Source: Serinus canaria (Eukaryota; Chordata; Aves; Passeriformes; Fringillidae). From it: DNA of 64,000 nucleotides. This document shows positions 6,850 through 62,445 of the stretch, in pieces. A model generated the notes under the pieces. That model was given only the letters and a program-made list of their open reading frames with translations, was not told where the DNA came from and made no database searches. The stretch lies in the NCBI RefSeq assembly GCF_022539315.1, contig NC_066331.1, forward strand, positions 10,386,015 to 10,450,014, in the 5' to 3' direction. The position numbers and the translations under genes are program-made. The stretch's first letter is position 1; every line of letters starts with the position of its first letter.

Positions 6850-7405
6850 AAAATGATGACCCAAACCCTAACCCTAACTGAAACCCTAACCCTAACCCAA
6901 ACCCTAACCATAACACTAACCCTGACCCTAACCCAAACCAAAAGCCTAACCCTAACCCAAAAGCTAACCCTGACCCAAACCCTAAACATAACGCTAACCC
7001 TGACCCTAACCCAAACCAAAAGCCTGACCCTAACCCAAAAGCTAACCCTAACCCAAACCCTAACCCTGCACCTAACCATTACCCGAATCCTAACACTAAC
7101 CCTTACCCAAACCCTGAACAAAAATCTAACCCGAACACTAACCCTAACTCTAACCCTAACCCGGACCCAAACACTAAGCCTAAACCAAACCCTAACCCTA
7201 ACCCAGACCCAGACTCTAACCCTAACCCAAACCCCCAAACGTTAAACCTAACTTTAACCCTGACCCTAACCCTAACCTAGACCCAGACCAGATCCAGACT
7301 CTAACCCAGACCCAGACCCAGTCCCAGACTTCAACCCTAACCCAGACCCAGTCCCAGACTCTAACCCAGACCCAGACCCAGTCCCAGACTCTAACCCAGA
7401 CCCAG
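6850..7405. repeat. degenerate interstitial telomeric repeat
   Basis: Many CCCTAA/ACCCTAACCC units mixed with variants (CCCAAACC, AGCCTAA, CCCTGACC), grading after about 7265 into CCCAGACCCAGTCCCAGACT. The plus strand is the C-rich telomere strand. The Thr/Leu-rich and Val/Arg-rich ORFs over it are artefacts. Confidence 0.88.
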
Positions 7406-7559: not shown

Positions 7560-7970
7560 TGGGTGTCACATTCATATTTTCTGAAAAATCCCTTGGCCCT
7601 GGATTGTTCTCCTGGGAAGCTGAGAGGCCTCAGAGAAAAGGAAAACAATTCTTATCTCATTTGTTTCTCCTGTGCTGTGCCCATGTGGAATGTGTTTGGG
7701 GATTGCTCACCCACAGGTGATTGTTCCATTGCATTCTGCTGGGAGTTGTTTTCACTCTTTGGCCAGTCAGGGCCAGGCTGTGTCAGGGCTCTGCAGAGAG
7801 TCAGGAGTTCTCATTATTATCTTTTTAGCCTTCTGTATCCTTGCTGTATTCTTTAGTGTAGTTTAGTATTCTTTAATATAATACAGTATGATAAAATAAT
7901 AAATTAGCCTGCTGAGAGCATGGAGTCAGATCCATCATTCTCTCCCCTCATCACTGAACCTGCACTCACA
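7560..7970 (+). mobile_element. solo ERV LTR with exact 5-bp target duplication
   Basis: Starts TGGGTGTCACATTCATATTT and ends CTGCACTCACA, flanked on both sides by ATGGA (7555-7559 and 7971-7975). It has a polyadenylation signal in AAAATAATAAATTAG near 7898. The same family occurs inverted at 9460-9885 and as a pair at 35611-36583. No internal retroviral sequence is present. Confidence 0.88.
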
Positions 7971-9459: not shown

Positions 9460-9885
9460 TGAAAATGCAGGCAACCCCAACGAGGGGAGAGAATGGTGCA
9501 TCTGACTCCACGTTCTCAGAAGGCTGATTTATTATTTTATGATACTATATGATATTAAAGAATGCTGTACTAAACTACACTAAAGAATTCAGACAGGATA
9601 CTGACAGAAGGCTAAAAAGATAATAATGAGAACTCCTGACTCTCTGCAGAGCCCTGACACAGCCTGGCCCTGACTGGCCAAAGAGTGAAAACAACTCCCA
9701 GCAGAATGCACTGGAACAATCACCTGTGGGTGAACAATCCCCAAACACATTCCACAGGAGCACAGCACAGGAGAAGCAAATGAGATAAGAATTGTTTTCC
9801 TTTTCTCTGAGGCTTCTCAGCTTCCCAGGAGAAAAACCAGGGCAAAGGAATCCTGAATACAGAACCTGGGAATGTGAATGCCACA
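9460..9885 (-). mobile_element. solo ERV LTR (same family, opposite orientation) with exact target duplication
   Basis: On the minus strand it starts TGTGGCATTCACATTCCC and ends CATTTTCA. TTTAT flanks it at 9455-9459 and 9886-9890. It shares the central GAGAGTCAGGAGTTCTCATT core and the polyadenylation region with the LTR at 7560. Its ends differ from that copy, so the two are separate insertions. Confidence 0.88.
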
Positions 9886-18282: not shown

Positions 18283-18787
18283 GAATCCCAGAATGGCTTG
18301 GGCTGGAAGGGACCTCAAAGCCCATCCAGTGCCACCCCTGCCATGGCAGGGACACCTCCCACTGTCCCAGGGACACCTCCCCCTGTCCAGGGACACCTCC
18401 CACTGTCCCAGGTGCTCCCAGTGTCCAGCCTGGCCTTAGGCACTGCCAGGGATCCAGGGGCAGCCACGCTGTGCCAGGGCCTGCCCACCCTGCCAGGAAC
18501 AATTCCCAATTCCCAAGATCCCATCCAGCCCTGCCCTGGCTCAGTCGGAAGCCATTCCCTGGGTCCTGTCCCCAACCCTTGGCAATTCTCTCTCTCCACG
18601 TTTCCTGCAGATCCTTTCAGGTCCTGAAAGATCACACTGAGCTCTCCCAAAGCTCCTCCTGCCCAGGTGAGCAATGCCAGCTGTGCCAGCCTCTCCTGCC
18701 AGCAGAGCTGCTCCATCCCTGGCATCATCCTGGAGCCTCCTTTGGGCTCTGCAGCAGCTCCAGCTCCTGCCTGTGCTGGGGCAGCTC
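18283..18787 (-). mobile_element. CR1 LINE 3' fragment (copy A of a near-identical inverted pair)
   Basis: Reverse-complement CR1: CACAGAATCCCAGAATGGCT, CCATGGCAGGGACACCTCCC, then the body. 18419-18825 is about 99% identical by eye to the reverse complement of 61898-62303, while the terminal 3' 130 bp differ strongly. Confidence 0.85.
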
Positions 18788-19045
18788 TGCAGGTGGGGTC
18801 AGTACAGGTGAGGTCTGTGCAGGTGAGGTCAGTGCAGGTGGGATCTGTGCAGGTGTCTGTGCAGTGGGGTCTGTGCAGGTGGGGTCAGTACAGGTGAGGT
18901 CAGTACAGGTGAGGTCTGTGCAGGTGGGGTCTGTGCAGGTGGGGTCTGTGCAGGTGGGGTCTCTGCAGGTGGGGTCTGTGCAGGTGGGGTCTGTGCAGGT
19001 GGGGTCTCTGCAGGTGGGGTCTGTGCAGGTGAAGTCTCACCTGAG
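18788..19045. repeat. 15-bp minisatellite, about 17 copies
   Basis: Units of GGTGGGGTCTGTGCA and GGTGAGGTCAGTGCA. The same array, with only about three copies, sits at the matching edge of the CR1 at 61.9 kb. Confidence 0.92.
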
Positions 19046-46320: not shown

Positions 46321-47025
46321 CCGGTGCTGAAGGCGCGGGCAGGAGAGCACAAACGCGGCCGCGGGGCACCAGGACGGGCCGCGGGGTGGGCAGTGGGATG
46401 GCCAGAGGGGTGAGGGTGGCCCTGGTCGGACCGTAGGGAGGAGGAACTCCTGGGTAGAGCATGGAAAGGGAAAACCCTTTGGTGGATGGTGCGAAGAGGG
46501 AAACCTTACACAACCCTTGCAAAGAGGGAAACCCTTGGATAAATGACTCAAGGGGGGGCCCTCGAAGCGGCAGCACAATGGGAAATCGTTTGGCCAGGTG
46601 GCATAGCCGTAGGAGAGCCACGGCACTGGGGAAACCCTTGGAAGGGTTGGCAGGGGAAACTCATGGAGAGCCAGAGCAAAGCGTAGAGAGCAGAGTGGGT
46701 GCTTCCAGGGAGACTCCTTGGGCAGAGAGAACCCCCGGACAGCGGTGTAAAAACTGAGCCCTTGGACAGCGAGTCCAAAGGGGGAATCCCTGGAGGAGCC
46801 ATGCCACGGGAAACTCTCGAGCAGGCTGCACAGCTGGGAGCCCTTGGCTGGGCGCTTAAACGGAGGACCCTTGGGTGGGCAGCTCCAGCGTTTCTAGCTT
46901 GACACCACGCTGTCTCCCAGGGCAAGCGGCAGCAATTTCTCACTAGAGAAACCCCGAGCAGACTCTGCCAAGAGGGAAGCTCGGGCAGGGGGAGCAGGGG
47001 AAGGGGTGAATGTTCATGAATGTAC
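46321..47025. other. 5' end of SHISA6 intron 1, GC-rich
   Basis: Repeated GGAAACCCTTGG-like short motifs (about 46470-46830) form a loose, decayed repeat. No exon. Confidence 0.4.
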
Positions 47026-47714
47026 CTGTGAATGTTCATCTCCCGGGGCGGGCGCCGCGCCTTGTCGTAGGCCACCTTGGCAAAGACGCCGGCGATGAGC
47101 ACGAAGGCGATGGCCCCGCACGAGATGTACACGGTGGCGTTGGTGCTGTCCTTGTCCGGGTCGTACTTGTTGGCATCCCCGTCGCCGCCGTCGCCGCCGT
47201 CGGCGGGCAGGGCGCCGCTGGCCGTGGTGGGGTGGGCCCACTCGGGGCTCTTGTAGTTGCGGCACAGGCTCTGGTTGAGCTTCTCGGCGCGCTTGTTGCA
47301 GCAGAAGCGGTAGAAGCAGGTGCCGCAGCAGTAGCGGAAGCCCGTCAGGCTGTTGTTGCACTCGAACTCCTTGTCCCACTGCCCGCTCACGTCGTAGTAC
47401 CCCCAGCACGTCTCGTGCGCCGGGGCCGAGCCCCCGCCGCCGCCGCCCCCGCCTCCGGGGGCCGCCTTGCCGCCCCCCGCGCCCTTGCCGCGCCCGGGCA
47501 GCGCCGTGGGGGCGGCGGCCCCCGGGCCCGCCAGCGTCTGGTTCAGGAGCTCCTTGCCCGGTTTGGGGGTCCGCCGCGGCGCCGCCGCCCCCTGGGTCCG
47601 GTTGCCCTTGGCGCGGGGGGGCCCGGCCGCCTGCGCGGGCAGCGGCAGCAGCAGCAGCGCCAGGAGCTGCAGGGAGAGCAGGAGCAGCGGCAGCAGCAGG
47701 TGCCGCGGCCCCAT
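47026..47714 (-). CDS. SHISA6: SHISA6 (or very close SHISA6-like paralog), coding exon 1
   Basis: Encodes residues 1-229 plus two bases of codon 230. Residues 1-29 are a leucine-rich signal peptide. Residues 30-100 are a low-complexity Pro/Ala/Gly ectodomain with a nine-glycine run (87-95). The Shisa cysteine-rich domain follows (about 101-160): it opens ETCWGYYDVSGQ and holds the paired-cysteine core YCCGTCFYRFCC. A single transmembrane helix lies at about 195-216, then the juxtamembrane sequence PPREMNIHR, which is typical of SHISA6; SHISA7, SHISA8 and SHISA9 differ there. N-glycosylation sequons are at N38, N58, N120, N147 and N192. The start has a strong GCCATGG context. The exon ends AG|GTACAT within the Arg230 codon, and exon 2 supplies the missing G. 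From the family: SHISA6 (CKAMP52) is a type I membrane AMPA-receptor auxiliary subunit that slows desensitisation and holds receptors at synapses. The gene name is inferred from motifs; a lineage-specific paralog cannot be excluded. The frame staying open to 46548 is intron read-through. Confidence 0.92.
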
Positions 47715-47769
47715 GGCGAGGGGCGAGGCGGGGGCGCGGCGCGGGGGGCGCGGCGGGCGGGGTGGGGGC

Positions 47770-48204
47770 TCAGCGGCCGCGGCGCTGCCCCATGGAGCGG
47801 GGCGGGGGCGGGGGGCGCGGCCGGGGGTCCCGCTGCTGGCTCCTCAGCGGCGGCCGCCCGGCGCCGGGCGCTTCATGCCGGCGAGCGGCGGAGCCCGGCG
47901 GAGCGCGGCTGGAGGCGGCGGGGTCCCGGTGCTGCTCCGGCGAGGGGCTGCGAGAGACGGGGAGAGGGTGAGAGCTCGCCGCGCCCCGGGCAGCCCGGCC
48001 CGCCCCCGCCCGCCCGCCCCATGCCCACGGCCTTACCATGCCGGAGCGGGACTGCAGCGGGGCCGCGGGGCTGCCCGCGCTCCGAGCCCAGCCGGGGGCG
48101 GAGCGGAGCGGCGCCGAGCCGGGCGCGGAGCAGGGGCGGGCGCCGAGCCGAGCCGGGAGCCGGGGAAGGACCGCCCACCGCTGCCGGGCCGCTCCTGACA
48201 TCAC
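47770..48204 (-). other. long upstream ORF (144 codons) in the SHISA6 leader region
   Basis: This open frame starts with two Met codons and stops about 55 bp before the SHISA6 ATG. It is Arg/Pro/Ala-rich as expected from CpG-island DNA and shows no domain. It matters only if transcription starts upstream of 48204, where it could act as an upstream ORF reducing SHISA6 translation. Splicing of the candidate 89-bp intron would change it. Confidence 0.3.
47948..48036 (-). other. candidate 89-bp 5'UTR intron
   Basis: On the minus strand there is a good donor (GGCATG|GTAAGG, GT at 48036-48035). 89 bp further there is an excellent acceptor: a long pyrimidine run ending TCTCTCGCAG, AG at 47949-47948. 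Introns this small occur in birds. If used, it would join a non-coding exon upstream of 48037 to the leader at 47947. GC-rich DNA can produce such sites by chance, so this is a hypothesis. Confidence 0.35.
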
Positions 48205-56145: not shown

Positions 56146-57200
56146 GGCTCAGTCCCTGTGCCCTGCTGGCCCTGCCCTCCCCCTCTGAGCATCACTAACC
56201 CCCAGCCAGGCCCTCGGGCAGCAAACACCCCCTGCACTGAGTCCTTTGCAGGGGCTGGGGACAAGAGCCCATCAGGCAAAGCCTGGCCCAGCTGAGCTCA
56301 GCTTTGCACCCCGTCTGTCAGTGCCAGGCCAACCCAGTGCCCCAGGACAGAGCACCGTGCAGGGAAACTGAGGCACGGGCACTTTGAGGTGTTGCTGTGA
56401 CACCAGAGTGGAGCTCATGAGGTATCTGTGCCCTTGTGCTGCTTGATTTAATTATCAGAGAGCAGAAAATGTGCCTAGAGAAGGGTAATTACAGAGTGAG
56501 GGCGGAATACTTGGGGTAAAAATACAAAATATTCTCCAGGGAGCTCTGGGGAGCCCGGTGTGAGGCTCAGCAGTGCCCAGGGCTGCTCCACCAGCTGAAA
56601 GGCTCCTTCACCCCAGGCCTGACAGAATTCCCACTCTGTCCCCTGCAGGAATGAAGCTCTGACCTCTGCTGACAAATCCCTTTCCAGGGAGAGCAGCAGA
56701 GCTCCCGAGCCGTGCTGGGGGACGCTGCCCACCCCTGGAGCTCTCGGCCAGCAGAGCCAGGCTGTTGGTAAATGTTATAAAACACAAGAGCTGCTGGGGT
56801 AAATCTTTGCTGGGATGGAGTGATCAGCTGTGGGATGAGTTCCAGGGACAAAATGCCATCAGCACAGGCAATGTGTTTCTGCTCTTCTCGGAAGAGCAAG
56901 CACCAAGCTCTCTTCCCACCCCCAAAAATAACCAGCTGGATTTTTCAGGATGCACAAGCAATAGGTCTTTTCCAGCTTTACTAACCCCAGGATAACCATG
57001 GCCTCTAGATCTTCATTTTTCTCCAGCAAAGCCACCAAAAGCACAGATGTTTAAAGTCCTCCCTTAAACTGCCAGGACACTCTTTGTGCTCCAGCCTTTC
57101 CCCACCAGCCCCAGCCTCATTCCCTGCCCTCCTTTTATTTCCCTATTTATTAATTAGTAAATAAGATTTATTATTTAATCCATTTATTAGTATTTCATAA
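56146..57200. other. non-coding single-copy DNA
   Basis: No gene. 57130-57200 is AT-rich (TTATTAATTAGTAAATAAGA). Confidence 0.5.
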
Positions 57201-58375
57201 TTTTCTGGATGTTTCCAGTGCTGGGAGTGACACCTGGGTGGGTTATTCCAAGGTGGAATGATGGCTCATTCCCATCTCCAGGCCGTGGCAGGGGTGTAAC
57301 AGCTCATTCCCATCTCCCTGGTGCTCGTGGCTGCACTGAGGATTTGCTGTTTGAGCTCAGAAAATGTATAGATGGCATAAATTTATAAGGATTTTATAAT
57401 ATAGATATAAAATTAATATAGATGGCATAAATTTATAAGGATTTTATTATTTAATTATTATCTATTAATTTATTTTCCTATTTAAATTTTAAGGAGATGC
57501 CTTAAATTCCCAGGGCTGCTCTGGGGCACTGCAGAGGTAGGAATTTGATTGCTGAAGCCCATTTGCTGTCAGTGCTGTGTCCCCAGCCCTGTGTCACAGC
57601 TGCAGGGACACGTGGAGAGGGGCAGGTGTGTGGGAGCACATCCCCCTGCTGCCTCTGTCCCCGCAGGTTGGGCTGGGAGAACGGCCACGGGGGAGGCAGA
57701 GCTGGGGCAATGAGCCCTCTTTTCTGTGTCACATACAAATAAAGATATTCTAGATAAAACCTCACAAAGCACAGATAAGGCTCCAGCAGCTCCCTGCATC
57801 CCCTGCCCCTGCTCCAGCCCTCGGTATTCAGGCGTTAATTAGCCCTTGCCGTTATTAATTACTGATCAGCCCCTATTAGTGGCTCACAGCCGGGTCTCCT
57901 GACCCTCGTTGTTCGAGGTGAGATCAGATCAGGCTGGCTGTCCCCTTGTTCACAGCCCTGCTGGAATCCCGGCCCCTCCCGCCGGTGTTTGCCCAAGGGA
58001 TTTACTCCGAGTTGCTCCTCGGGATTTTCTCCCACTGCTGAGGGATAAGAAGGGTTGGGAGCACGGTTCTTTCATTCCAGTCGTTTGTATTAATTGATAT
58101 TTTAGATCAAATGGAGGAGGCTTAACTGGCCTAAGGGGTCGTCACCTCTGAGTCAGCGGCTCCTATTGGAGGAATGGAATGAATTTTGTCACAGACACTG
58201 GCAGGGATGTTCTGAGCTCAAACAGCAAATCCTCAGTGCAGCCACGAGCACCAGGGAGATAGATGGGAATGAGCTGTTACACCCCTGCCACGGCCTGGAG
58301 ATGGGAATGAGCCATCATTCCACCTTGGAATAACCCACCCAGGTGTCACTCCCAGCACTGGAAACATCCAGAAAA
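57201..58375. repeat. near-perfect inverted repeat, 161/165-bp arms, 849-bp spacer
   Basis: 57201-57361 (TTTTCTGGATGTTTCCAGTG to TTTGAGCTCAGA) equals the reverse complement of 58211-58375, apart from a 4-bp ATCT duplication in the right arm. I see no substitutions. No target duplication flanks the arms (CATAA left, GTTGC right). Confidence 0.95.
57362..58210. promoter_or_regulatory. inverted-repeat spacer with an enhancer-like core
   Basis: 57362-57450 contains a duplicated ATAGATGGCATAAATTTATA. 57825-58190 is unique, with homeodomain cores (GGCGTTAATTAGCCC, CGTTATTAATTACTGATCAG), retained CpGs (CGTTGTTCGAGG) and a CCTATTGGAGG CCAAT-type box. It looks like a conserved element, unproven. Confidence 0.35.
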
Positions 58376-60049: not shown

Positions 60050-60530
60050 GCAGATGGGAGTGGGTGAGGGTAGGGTGCAACCCCGTGGGAGTGGGATGGG
60101 AGCAGAGTGGAACATAGGAGAGTGGGATGGGAGCAGGAGAAATTGTGTGGGAGTGGGAGTGATGGGGAGGGAGCAGGTGGCAGCAGGGTGGGAGGGTATG
60201 TGACTGGGTGGGATGGGAATGGGACTGGTTGGGATCAGAGTGGGATGGGAATGGGGGGGGGTGGTAGGGATGGGGGATGGGACTGGGCTGAGATTGGGTG
60301 GGATCAGGGGTGATGGTTGGGATCAGGGATGGGATTGGGGGAGATCAAAAGTGATGGTTTGATGGACTGGGATATTGGATGGGATCAGGGGCTGATGGCA
60401 TCAGGTGGGATCAGGGGGTGGTGGGATCAGGGGTGATGGTTGGGATCAGGGATGGGATCAGGGATGGGATCGGGACGATGGCTGGCGTCAGGGATGGCAT
60501 CAGGGATGGCATCAGGGATGGGCCGGGCGG
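60050..60530. repeat. degenerate GGGATCAGGGATGG-type repeat
   Basis: Loose units of GGTGGGATCAGGGGTGATGG and GGGATCAGGGATGGGATC. Strongly G-rich on the plus strand. Confidence 0.85.
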
Positions 60531-60570
60531 TCCCGGAGCGGCGCCCGGAGGAGGCGGCCCGCGGCCAGCA

Positions 60571-60584
60571 CCGCTAGGGGGCAG
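60571..60584 (+). promoter_or_regulatory. candidate CTCF site
   Basis: CCGCTAGGGGGCAG matches the CTCF core consensus (CCnCnAGGGGGCAG type). It lies in a small CpG-rich patch (60520-60610), about 12.9 kb upstream of the SHISA6 start codon. Binding is inferred from the motif only. Confidence 0.45.
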
Positions 60585-60599
60585 TAACGCACTGCCCGC

Positions 60600-60795
60600 G
60601 GCACCGAACGGAACCGAACGGGACCGAACGGGACCGACTGGGACCGACCGGCCCCGACCAACCAGCACTGACCGGCACCGACCCGAACCGGGACCGACCC
60701 GCTCGGGAGCCGAACGGAATGGACTGAACAGAATGGAGCGAACGGGACCGACCCTCTCGGGCCGGGACCGACCGGCACTGACCGACAGGAACCGG
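60600..60795. repeat. about 10-bp CpG-containing repeat
   Basis: GGGACCGAACGGGACCGACT and related decamers (GACCGACCGG, CACTGACCGG), about 18 units. Confidence 0.88.
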
Positions 60796-60799
60796 CAGA

Positions 60800-61890
60800 T
60801 CCAGAAATATTCATCCCTTCAAAGGCATCTGCTCACCCCGCAGCTCAACTCCCCGTGCAATGCAACATCTCCTCCCCTACAAGGAGAGTCCGGGCTCGTG
60901 CTCTTGCAGAGAACTGGGAATTTCTGACGGACTCCTGGTTCTTTGGGACCGTCCTATCCAGCTCTGCAGGCTGGAGACGTGGCTGGCTGCAGAACTGGCA
61001 GCTCCCTGTCACGCAGCCAAGGGATTACTGCTTCCCTTCCTGCTGAAGCTCCCCGGGGTTTGTCCCCTCTCCATCCCTCCTATCTGGAGCTTCACACACC
61101 CTGTGCCTTTCATCTGCTGCTGGCAGGGTGATCCAGGCGCCTGGAGCCTCTCCAGGCTCAGCAGGACAGCAGGGAGGTGCTGGGCACAGGTCCCACCTGG
61201 GCAGGGCTCTCCTTGTCAGCTCTGGCCAGCCCGTCCCGCTGCCCCCACTCAGGGAATCATCCCCGGCCTGCTGGGGGCTGTTATCCCTCGGGGTGCTCCT
61301 TTCCCTCAGCTGGATGAGCTGTGTTCCCATCCTGTCCTTGGCTGGGGCTGTGGGAGGTGCCCAGGAAGGCACAGCCAGGTGGAGGGAGCTGTGTGTTCCA
61401 CGCTGGAGGAAATTCCTCCCAAGCCCTGGAGCTCGGGGTGCTGCAAACGGGGCAGAACCACCTTGGGTGGATGAGGACACTGAGCCAGAGGGGTCCCAAG
61501 TCCTCCTGGAGGCTCTGCCTGCAGCCTCCTGCTCGGGGACACCCTTGCTGAGCTGTCTGCATTAAAGCTCTTCACAAGTCCTGAGCCAGGAGCTCAACCC
61601 TGAGCTGAGGCAGCAAAGCCAGCAGGGGCTCCCAGCCCTGCACTGACCTTGTCCCATGACTGTCACCACTCCCAGACCCGTGTCCCACGCAGAAAGGCAG
61701 AGGTGATGCTTTGTCACAGCTCTCCCACAACTGAGGTGACACAGGCTTGGCGACCCCTCAGCACCTGGATCCCCTTCCCACTGAAATCAGGGCATGGAAC
61801 CAGAAGCAGAGGTGTCAACAAAAGAATTTCAATCTGAGGGAAAAGGGAGAGCAGCAGGGAGGGGAGGGGGGGATTCTGCCCCACCTGCAC
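60800..61890. other. non-coding single-copy DNA
   Basis: No gene supported, although ORFs of up to 204 codons overlap on the plus strand. Confidence 0.45.
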
Positions 61891-61897
61891 AGACCCC

Positions 61898-62445
61898 ACC
61901 TGCACAGACCTCACCTGTACTGACCCCACCTGCAGAGCTGCCCCAGCACAGGCAGGAGCTGGAGCTGCTGCAGAGCCCAAAGGAGGCTCCAGGATGATGC
62001 CAGGGATGGAGCAGCTCTGCTGGCAGGAGAGGCTGGCACAGCTGGCATTGCTCACCTGGGCAGGAGGAGCTTTGGGAGAGCTCAGTGTGATCTTTCAGGA
62101 CCTGAAAGGATCTGCAGGAAACGTGGAGAGAGAGAATTGCCAAGGGCTGGGGACAGGACCCAGGGAATGGCTTCAGACTGAGCCAGGGCAGGGCTGGATG
62201 GGATCTTGGGAATTGGGAATTGTTCCTGGCAGGGTGGGCAGGCCCTGGCACAGCGTGGCTGCCCCTGGATCCCTGGCAGTGCCCAAGGCCAGGTTGGACA
62301 CTGGGGCTGGGAGCACCTGGGACAGGGGGAGGTGTTCCTGGGGCAGGGGAAGGTGTCCCTGGAGCAGTGGGAGGTGTCCCTGCCATGGCTTTCAGGACAA
62401 TCTTTAATGTCCCTTCCCACCCAACCCCTTTTGGGATTGATGTTC
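61898..62445 (+). mobile_element. CR1 LINE 3' fragment (copy B of the near-identical inverted pair)
   Basis: Sense CR1 ending GGACAATCTTTAATGTCCCT and TGATGTTCTGTG. 61898-62303 is about 99% identical by eye to 18419-18825 reversed. A three-copy form of the 15-bp repeat lies at its left edge. Confidence 0.87.

Follow-up and report, generated by a model that had tools for sequence, protein, structure and literature searches.

An apparently recent inverted duplication upstream of bird SHISA6 and its probable origin in a templated inverted insertion

Short inverted copies that lie close to their source have been described in several systems. In great apes, short-range template switches copy nearby sequence as its reverse complement and so make an inverted repeat. 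One survey reports an excess of these events in AT-rich and poly(dA:dT) DNA, and in its gold-standard set the copied stretch has a median length of 12 and a maximum of 128 (PMC7954356). Class 2 templated sequence insertion polymorphisms are reported to lack a target duplication and to leave the donor in place; their donors are distant and copying via RNA has been proposed, while experimental repair-patch insertions given in the same source measure 73-414 bp with a median of 191 (PMC5110952). At yeast breaks, local foldback insertions are described as mostly about 5-34 bp (PMC11724301). Inverted duplications also flank the segments reversed by staggered-break inversions in Drosophila (PMC7584159), and human-chimpanzee microinversions are vertebrate segments between inverted repeats, the segments being reported as 17-33 nt and the repeats as 3-75 nt long (PMC8755829). 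Here we describe an inverted repeat in a 64-kb window (the whole stretch of DNA that was analysed) and compare it with these systems.

The left arm (57201 to 57361, plus strand, 161 bp, 54% GC) aligned to the reverse complement of the right arm (58211 to 58375, minus strand, 165 bp, 53% GC) without a substitution and with a single 4-bp gap, and exactly 849 bp of spacer (57362 to 58210) lie between them. The alignment thus bears out the original prediction of a near-perfect inverted repeat with a 161-bp arm and an 849-bp spacer. The gap reflects an extra AGAT/ATCT unit found in the right arm only, where alignment and sequence place the tandem unit AGATAGAT at 58257 to 58264 (ATCTATCT on the other strand); the unit is single in the left arm, and its doubling suggests a minor slippage event of its own. 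Past 57361/58211 the alignment shows a single mismatch followed by 2 matching bases, too little to be informative. The longest exact inverted run between the arms was 115 bp. The longest exact inverted matches in 20 random Markov-1 sequences, each as long as the window, measured 15-21 bp, so the arms are not due to chance.

As had also been predicted, the junction sequences revealed no target-site duplication at the arms, the left flank ending in ...TTTCATAA and the right flank starting with GTTGCTGCC. Nor did they contain a poly(A) tract at the left arm, the putative insert; the longest A/T homopolymers at its edges have 4 bases, and the one at the outer edge is also present in the putative donor. 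When the 64-kb window was searched with blastn (word size 7, E≤0.01), no third copy of the arm was found. The arms pair with each other in a DNA fold, a result obtained without shuffled sequences at that length. This pairing is a consequence of their being an inverted repeat and is therefore no evidence for hairpin function. In the sequence analysed, the arms are a real and apparently recent local inverted duplication.

The surroundings of the two arms differ markedly in composition. AT islands, scored as at least 80% AT in 60-bp windows, flank the left arm both outside (57127 to 57219) and inside, towards the spacer (57354 to 57512); the listed end of the first and the listed start of the second overlap the arm slightly, as the window width entails. 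The left arm is 54% GC, and the 60 bp on each side of it are 85% AT. The corresponding flanks of the right arm are 52% AT on the inner and 40% AT on the outer side. The 64 kb hold 11 such islands, two of which abut the left arm. We compared this arrangement with 62,918 control positions (56900-57700 left out) carrying flanks at 161-bp spacing. The left flank reached at least 80% AT at 530 of these positions and both flanks at none, a result to be read with the fact that, counted by island, the AT-flank controls are the 9 other islands only. When the threshold was lowered to 75% AT, both flanks passed in 24 controls, and in none of the 24 was the middle at most 55% AT.

Because only the left arm is bounded by AT islands on either side, it would be the inserted copy and the right arm the donor, and the composition suggests that the insertion was into one AT island. 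The AT-rich end of the spacer still faces the AT-rich flank, which suggests that the spacer keeps its original orientation. The two AT flanks of the left arm resembled each other no more than their composition predicts, with 551 of 1,000 shuffles reaching the observed score in the same orientation and 418 of 1,000 in reverse complement. Similarity between the flanks was therefore rejected as proof of a split island, and the case for a single divided island is one of composition and position. The inner island also holds an AT-rich tandem duplication of ~50 bp directly inside the left arm (57367-57416 and 57417-57466). The best 37 bp of this duplication contain 2 mismatches, so it is probably older than the inverted repeat.

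We consider it moderately probable that the right arm was copied in inverted orientation to give the left arm, through a template switch or patch repair, and that the spacer was not inverted. On this model the right arm (58211-58375) would be the original. While an AT-rich stretch about 850 bp from it was being replicated, or a break there repaired, the nascent strand would change template, copy about 161 bp of the right arm in reverse and then go back; alternatively, a copy of the right arm would be pasted in as a patch. The outcome would be an inverted copy within the AT island, now the left arm, with the orientation of the spacer unchanged. Two nearly identical arms, with AT islands flanking the left arm only, are what we observe, and from them we infer which arm was copied, that this happened once, and by what mechanism.

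The locus shares with the great-ape template switches the reverse-complement copying of nearby sequence, the resulting inverted repeat and the AT-rich surroundings. In contrast to that set (median 12, maximum 128), 161 bp were here copied from about 850 bp away (PMC7954356). The copy thus exceeds the great-ape maximum and lies outside that size class, though the mechanism may be alike; it is also longer than most of the yeast foldback insertions (PMC11724301). Like the Class 2 insertions, the putative insert has no target duplication and no poly(A) tract, its donor stays in place and its size falls within 73-414 bp; unlike them, as far as they are characterized in that source, it has a donor less than 1 kb away and is inverted (PMC5110952). 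The repeat most likely reflects a templated inverted insertion, a mutation of ordinary type though of some length among its kind, and the inverted structure is a scar whose function is not evident. Should the left arm indeed stem from a template switch, it is a germline case of rather great length, exceeding the sizes recorded in one great-ape survey. Inverted copies of this type make inverted repeats that can later seed inversions.

The original prediction had taken the arms as the possible footprint of a small inversion. In such an event one staggered break would leave the arm sequence as an overhang, its fill-in at each end would produce the two copies, and the spacer would now be reversed. 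The anatomy X-A-spacer-A'-Y is what one staggered and one clean break are predicted to give, and Drosophila inversions are reported to carry inverted duplications of this kind (PMC7584159); here, too, a segment is bounded by inverted duplications at either end. An inversion could plausibly break at AT-rich sites, and if breaks favour such DNA, it could likewise have brought AT islands to where we find them, which weakens the argument for insertion drawn from the flanks. However, the inversion needs AT islands from two separate break sites to end beside the same arm, an arrangement met with at none of the 62,918 control positions, and repair alone is described as able to yield inverted duplications as well (PMC7584159). 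Compared with the human-chimpanzee microinversions, the segment and repeats are far larger (849 and 161 bp against 17-33 and 3-75 nt in that report; PMC8755829). In contrast to the Drosophila cases, the AT islands beside the left arm speak for an insertion, and the spacer has been read in one bird only. A recent local duplication is supported, while the reversal of the spacer through staggered breaks is possible but unlikely and does not fit best, as the left arm interrupts what appears to be a single AT island.

It is improbable that the second arm is an assembly or haplotype artefact placed by mis-assembly. Inverted chimaeras and assembly errors do occur, and near-perfect identity of the arms is what an artefact would show. 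Against this, the arms differ by the 4-bp indel and the flanking sequence differs on both sides of each arm; the window also contains no N, which together with the indel and the distinct flanks still falls short of excluding an assembly error.

Slightly less credible still is an older inverted repeat whose arms were kept identical by gene conversion from arm to arm, possibly with repeated flipping of the spacer. The arm length of 161 bp falls within the 50-250 bp cited as needed for eukaryotic homologous recombination (PMC8755829). Identity nevertheless breaks off abruptly at either end of the arms, one indel has survived, and nothing in the sequence requires conversion.

That the arms are terminal inverted repeats of a DNA transposon or foldback element is very improbable, since the outline of arms around a spacer of about 0.85 kb resembles a non-autonomous element but no target-site duplication accompanies it and the arms occupy a single locus in the 64-kb window, with no other copy. 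Exact words from the arm had no match in collections of viral and prokaryote contigs, nor did a word from the spacer in viral contigs, although these collections hold no birds and make both tests weak. A search for a spurious bird protein with a conceptual open reading frame through the right arm and its flank, likewise a weak test, returned 5 candidates, none of which scored. A control frame through a repeat family of the window returned 115 candidates and 2 matches.

The absence of substitutions at 161 sites limits the divergence of the arms to below 1.8% (95% bound). With the mutation rate of 5.0e-9 per base per generation reported for the zebra finch (PMC12047795), simple arithmetic gives the copy an age of less than about 1.8 million generations. 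This estimate would be too young if gene conversion had kept the arms alike. We give this age in generations only, since yearly mutation rates are reported to vary widely among birds (PMC9995274).

Judged by its coding sequence, the window is a bird SHISA6 locus, and the bird is probably a passerine. A minus-strand open reading frame at 46548-47843 carries a Pfam Shisa_N domain (E 1.7e-15) and has bird Shisa and SHISA6 proteins as its best matches; its part at 46551 to 47714 contains the first coding exon of the gene. The first ATG of the matching frame is at about 47714, and the 3' part of the frame probably runs into an intron. The protein search, in which the 7,987 candidates sharing most words were scored, gave 220 matches at E≤0.001. 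Among the best 120 of these 220, the top match by E-value was a Geospiza parvula protein (89% identity over 53% of the query), and the top matches by identity were SHISA6 of Cyanoderma ruficeps (99% over 45%) and of Catharus ustulatus (96% over 46%). The inverted repeat is situated 5' of the SHISA6 start codon, at a distance of about 9.5 kb. This locus did not appear among the titles and abstract openings listed in the literature searches, which is a thin test.

The spacer had been called enhancer-like, and this description holds for part of it. About 400 bp (57801 to 58200) are relatively rich in CpG, with observed/expected ratios of 0.53 and 0.57 in two 200-bp windows as compared with 0.18 for the whole 64 kb. 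The 400-bp window at 57801 ranked 37th of 636 for CpG, behind windows that include the SHISA6 exon 1 region and 60.2-60.7 kb. Three of the 23 TAATTA sites in the 64 kb fall in the spacer, two of them in the CpG-retaining part (57836 and 57856) and one in the AT island. The left ~140 bp of the spacer are part of the AT island. The composition of 57801-58200 is compatible with a putative regulatory element. No Rfam family matched anywhere in the 64 kb at the gathering threshold. We regard as a long shot the idea of a recent and segregating switch, in which recombination between the arms would flip the CpG-retaining, TAATTA-bearing element, both orientations would occur in the population and SHISA6 expression would be affected. 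A second CpG-rich stretch at 60201-61100 reaches an observed/expected ratio of 0.98 in 400-bp windows. It overlaps a tandem array of the CGGGACCGAA type and is distinct from the CpG-rich sequence around the SHISA6 exon.

Near-identical inverted pairs elsewhere in the 64 kb were examined as possible signs of a regional process; 51 were present, of which 25 were viewed. One is a pair of ~500 bp whose members lie 43 kb apart (18340-18842 and 61880-62389), with 491 matches, 12 mismatches and 7 gap columns, including a stretch of 426 nt that is 99% alike. It includes part of a repeat family with members near 5.3, 6.6, 33.7 and 54.2 kb, and it runs into a 15-bp minisatellite of 16.5 copies in one member and 3.7 in the other. 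Another inverted pair (7591-7949 and 9482-9848), ~360 bp long, is 92% alike across a distance of 1.5 kb and has kin at 35.7 and 36.3-36.5 kb. Because overlapping sequences recur elsewhere in the 64 kb, as judged from the first 70 of 72 rows of the within-window comparison, the ~500-bp pair looks like copies of an interspersed repeat and the ~360-bp pair probably represents such copies too. A degenerate telomere-like array of ACCCTA and ACCCAG hexamers, with about 70% matches, extends over about 550 bp at 6859-7405.
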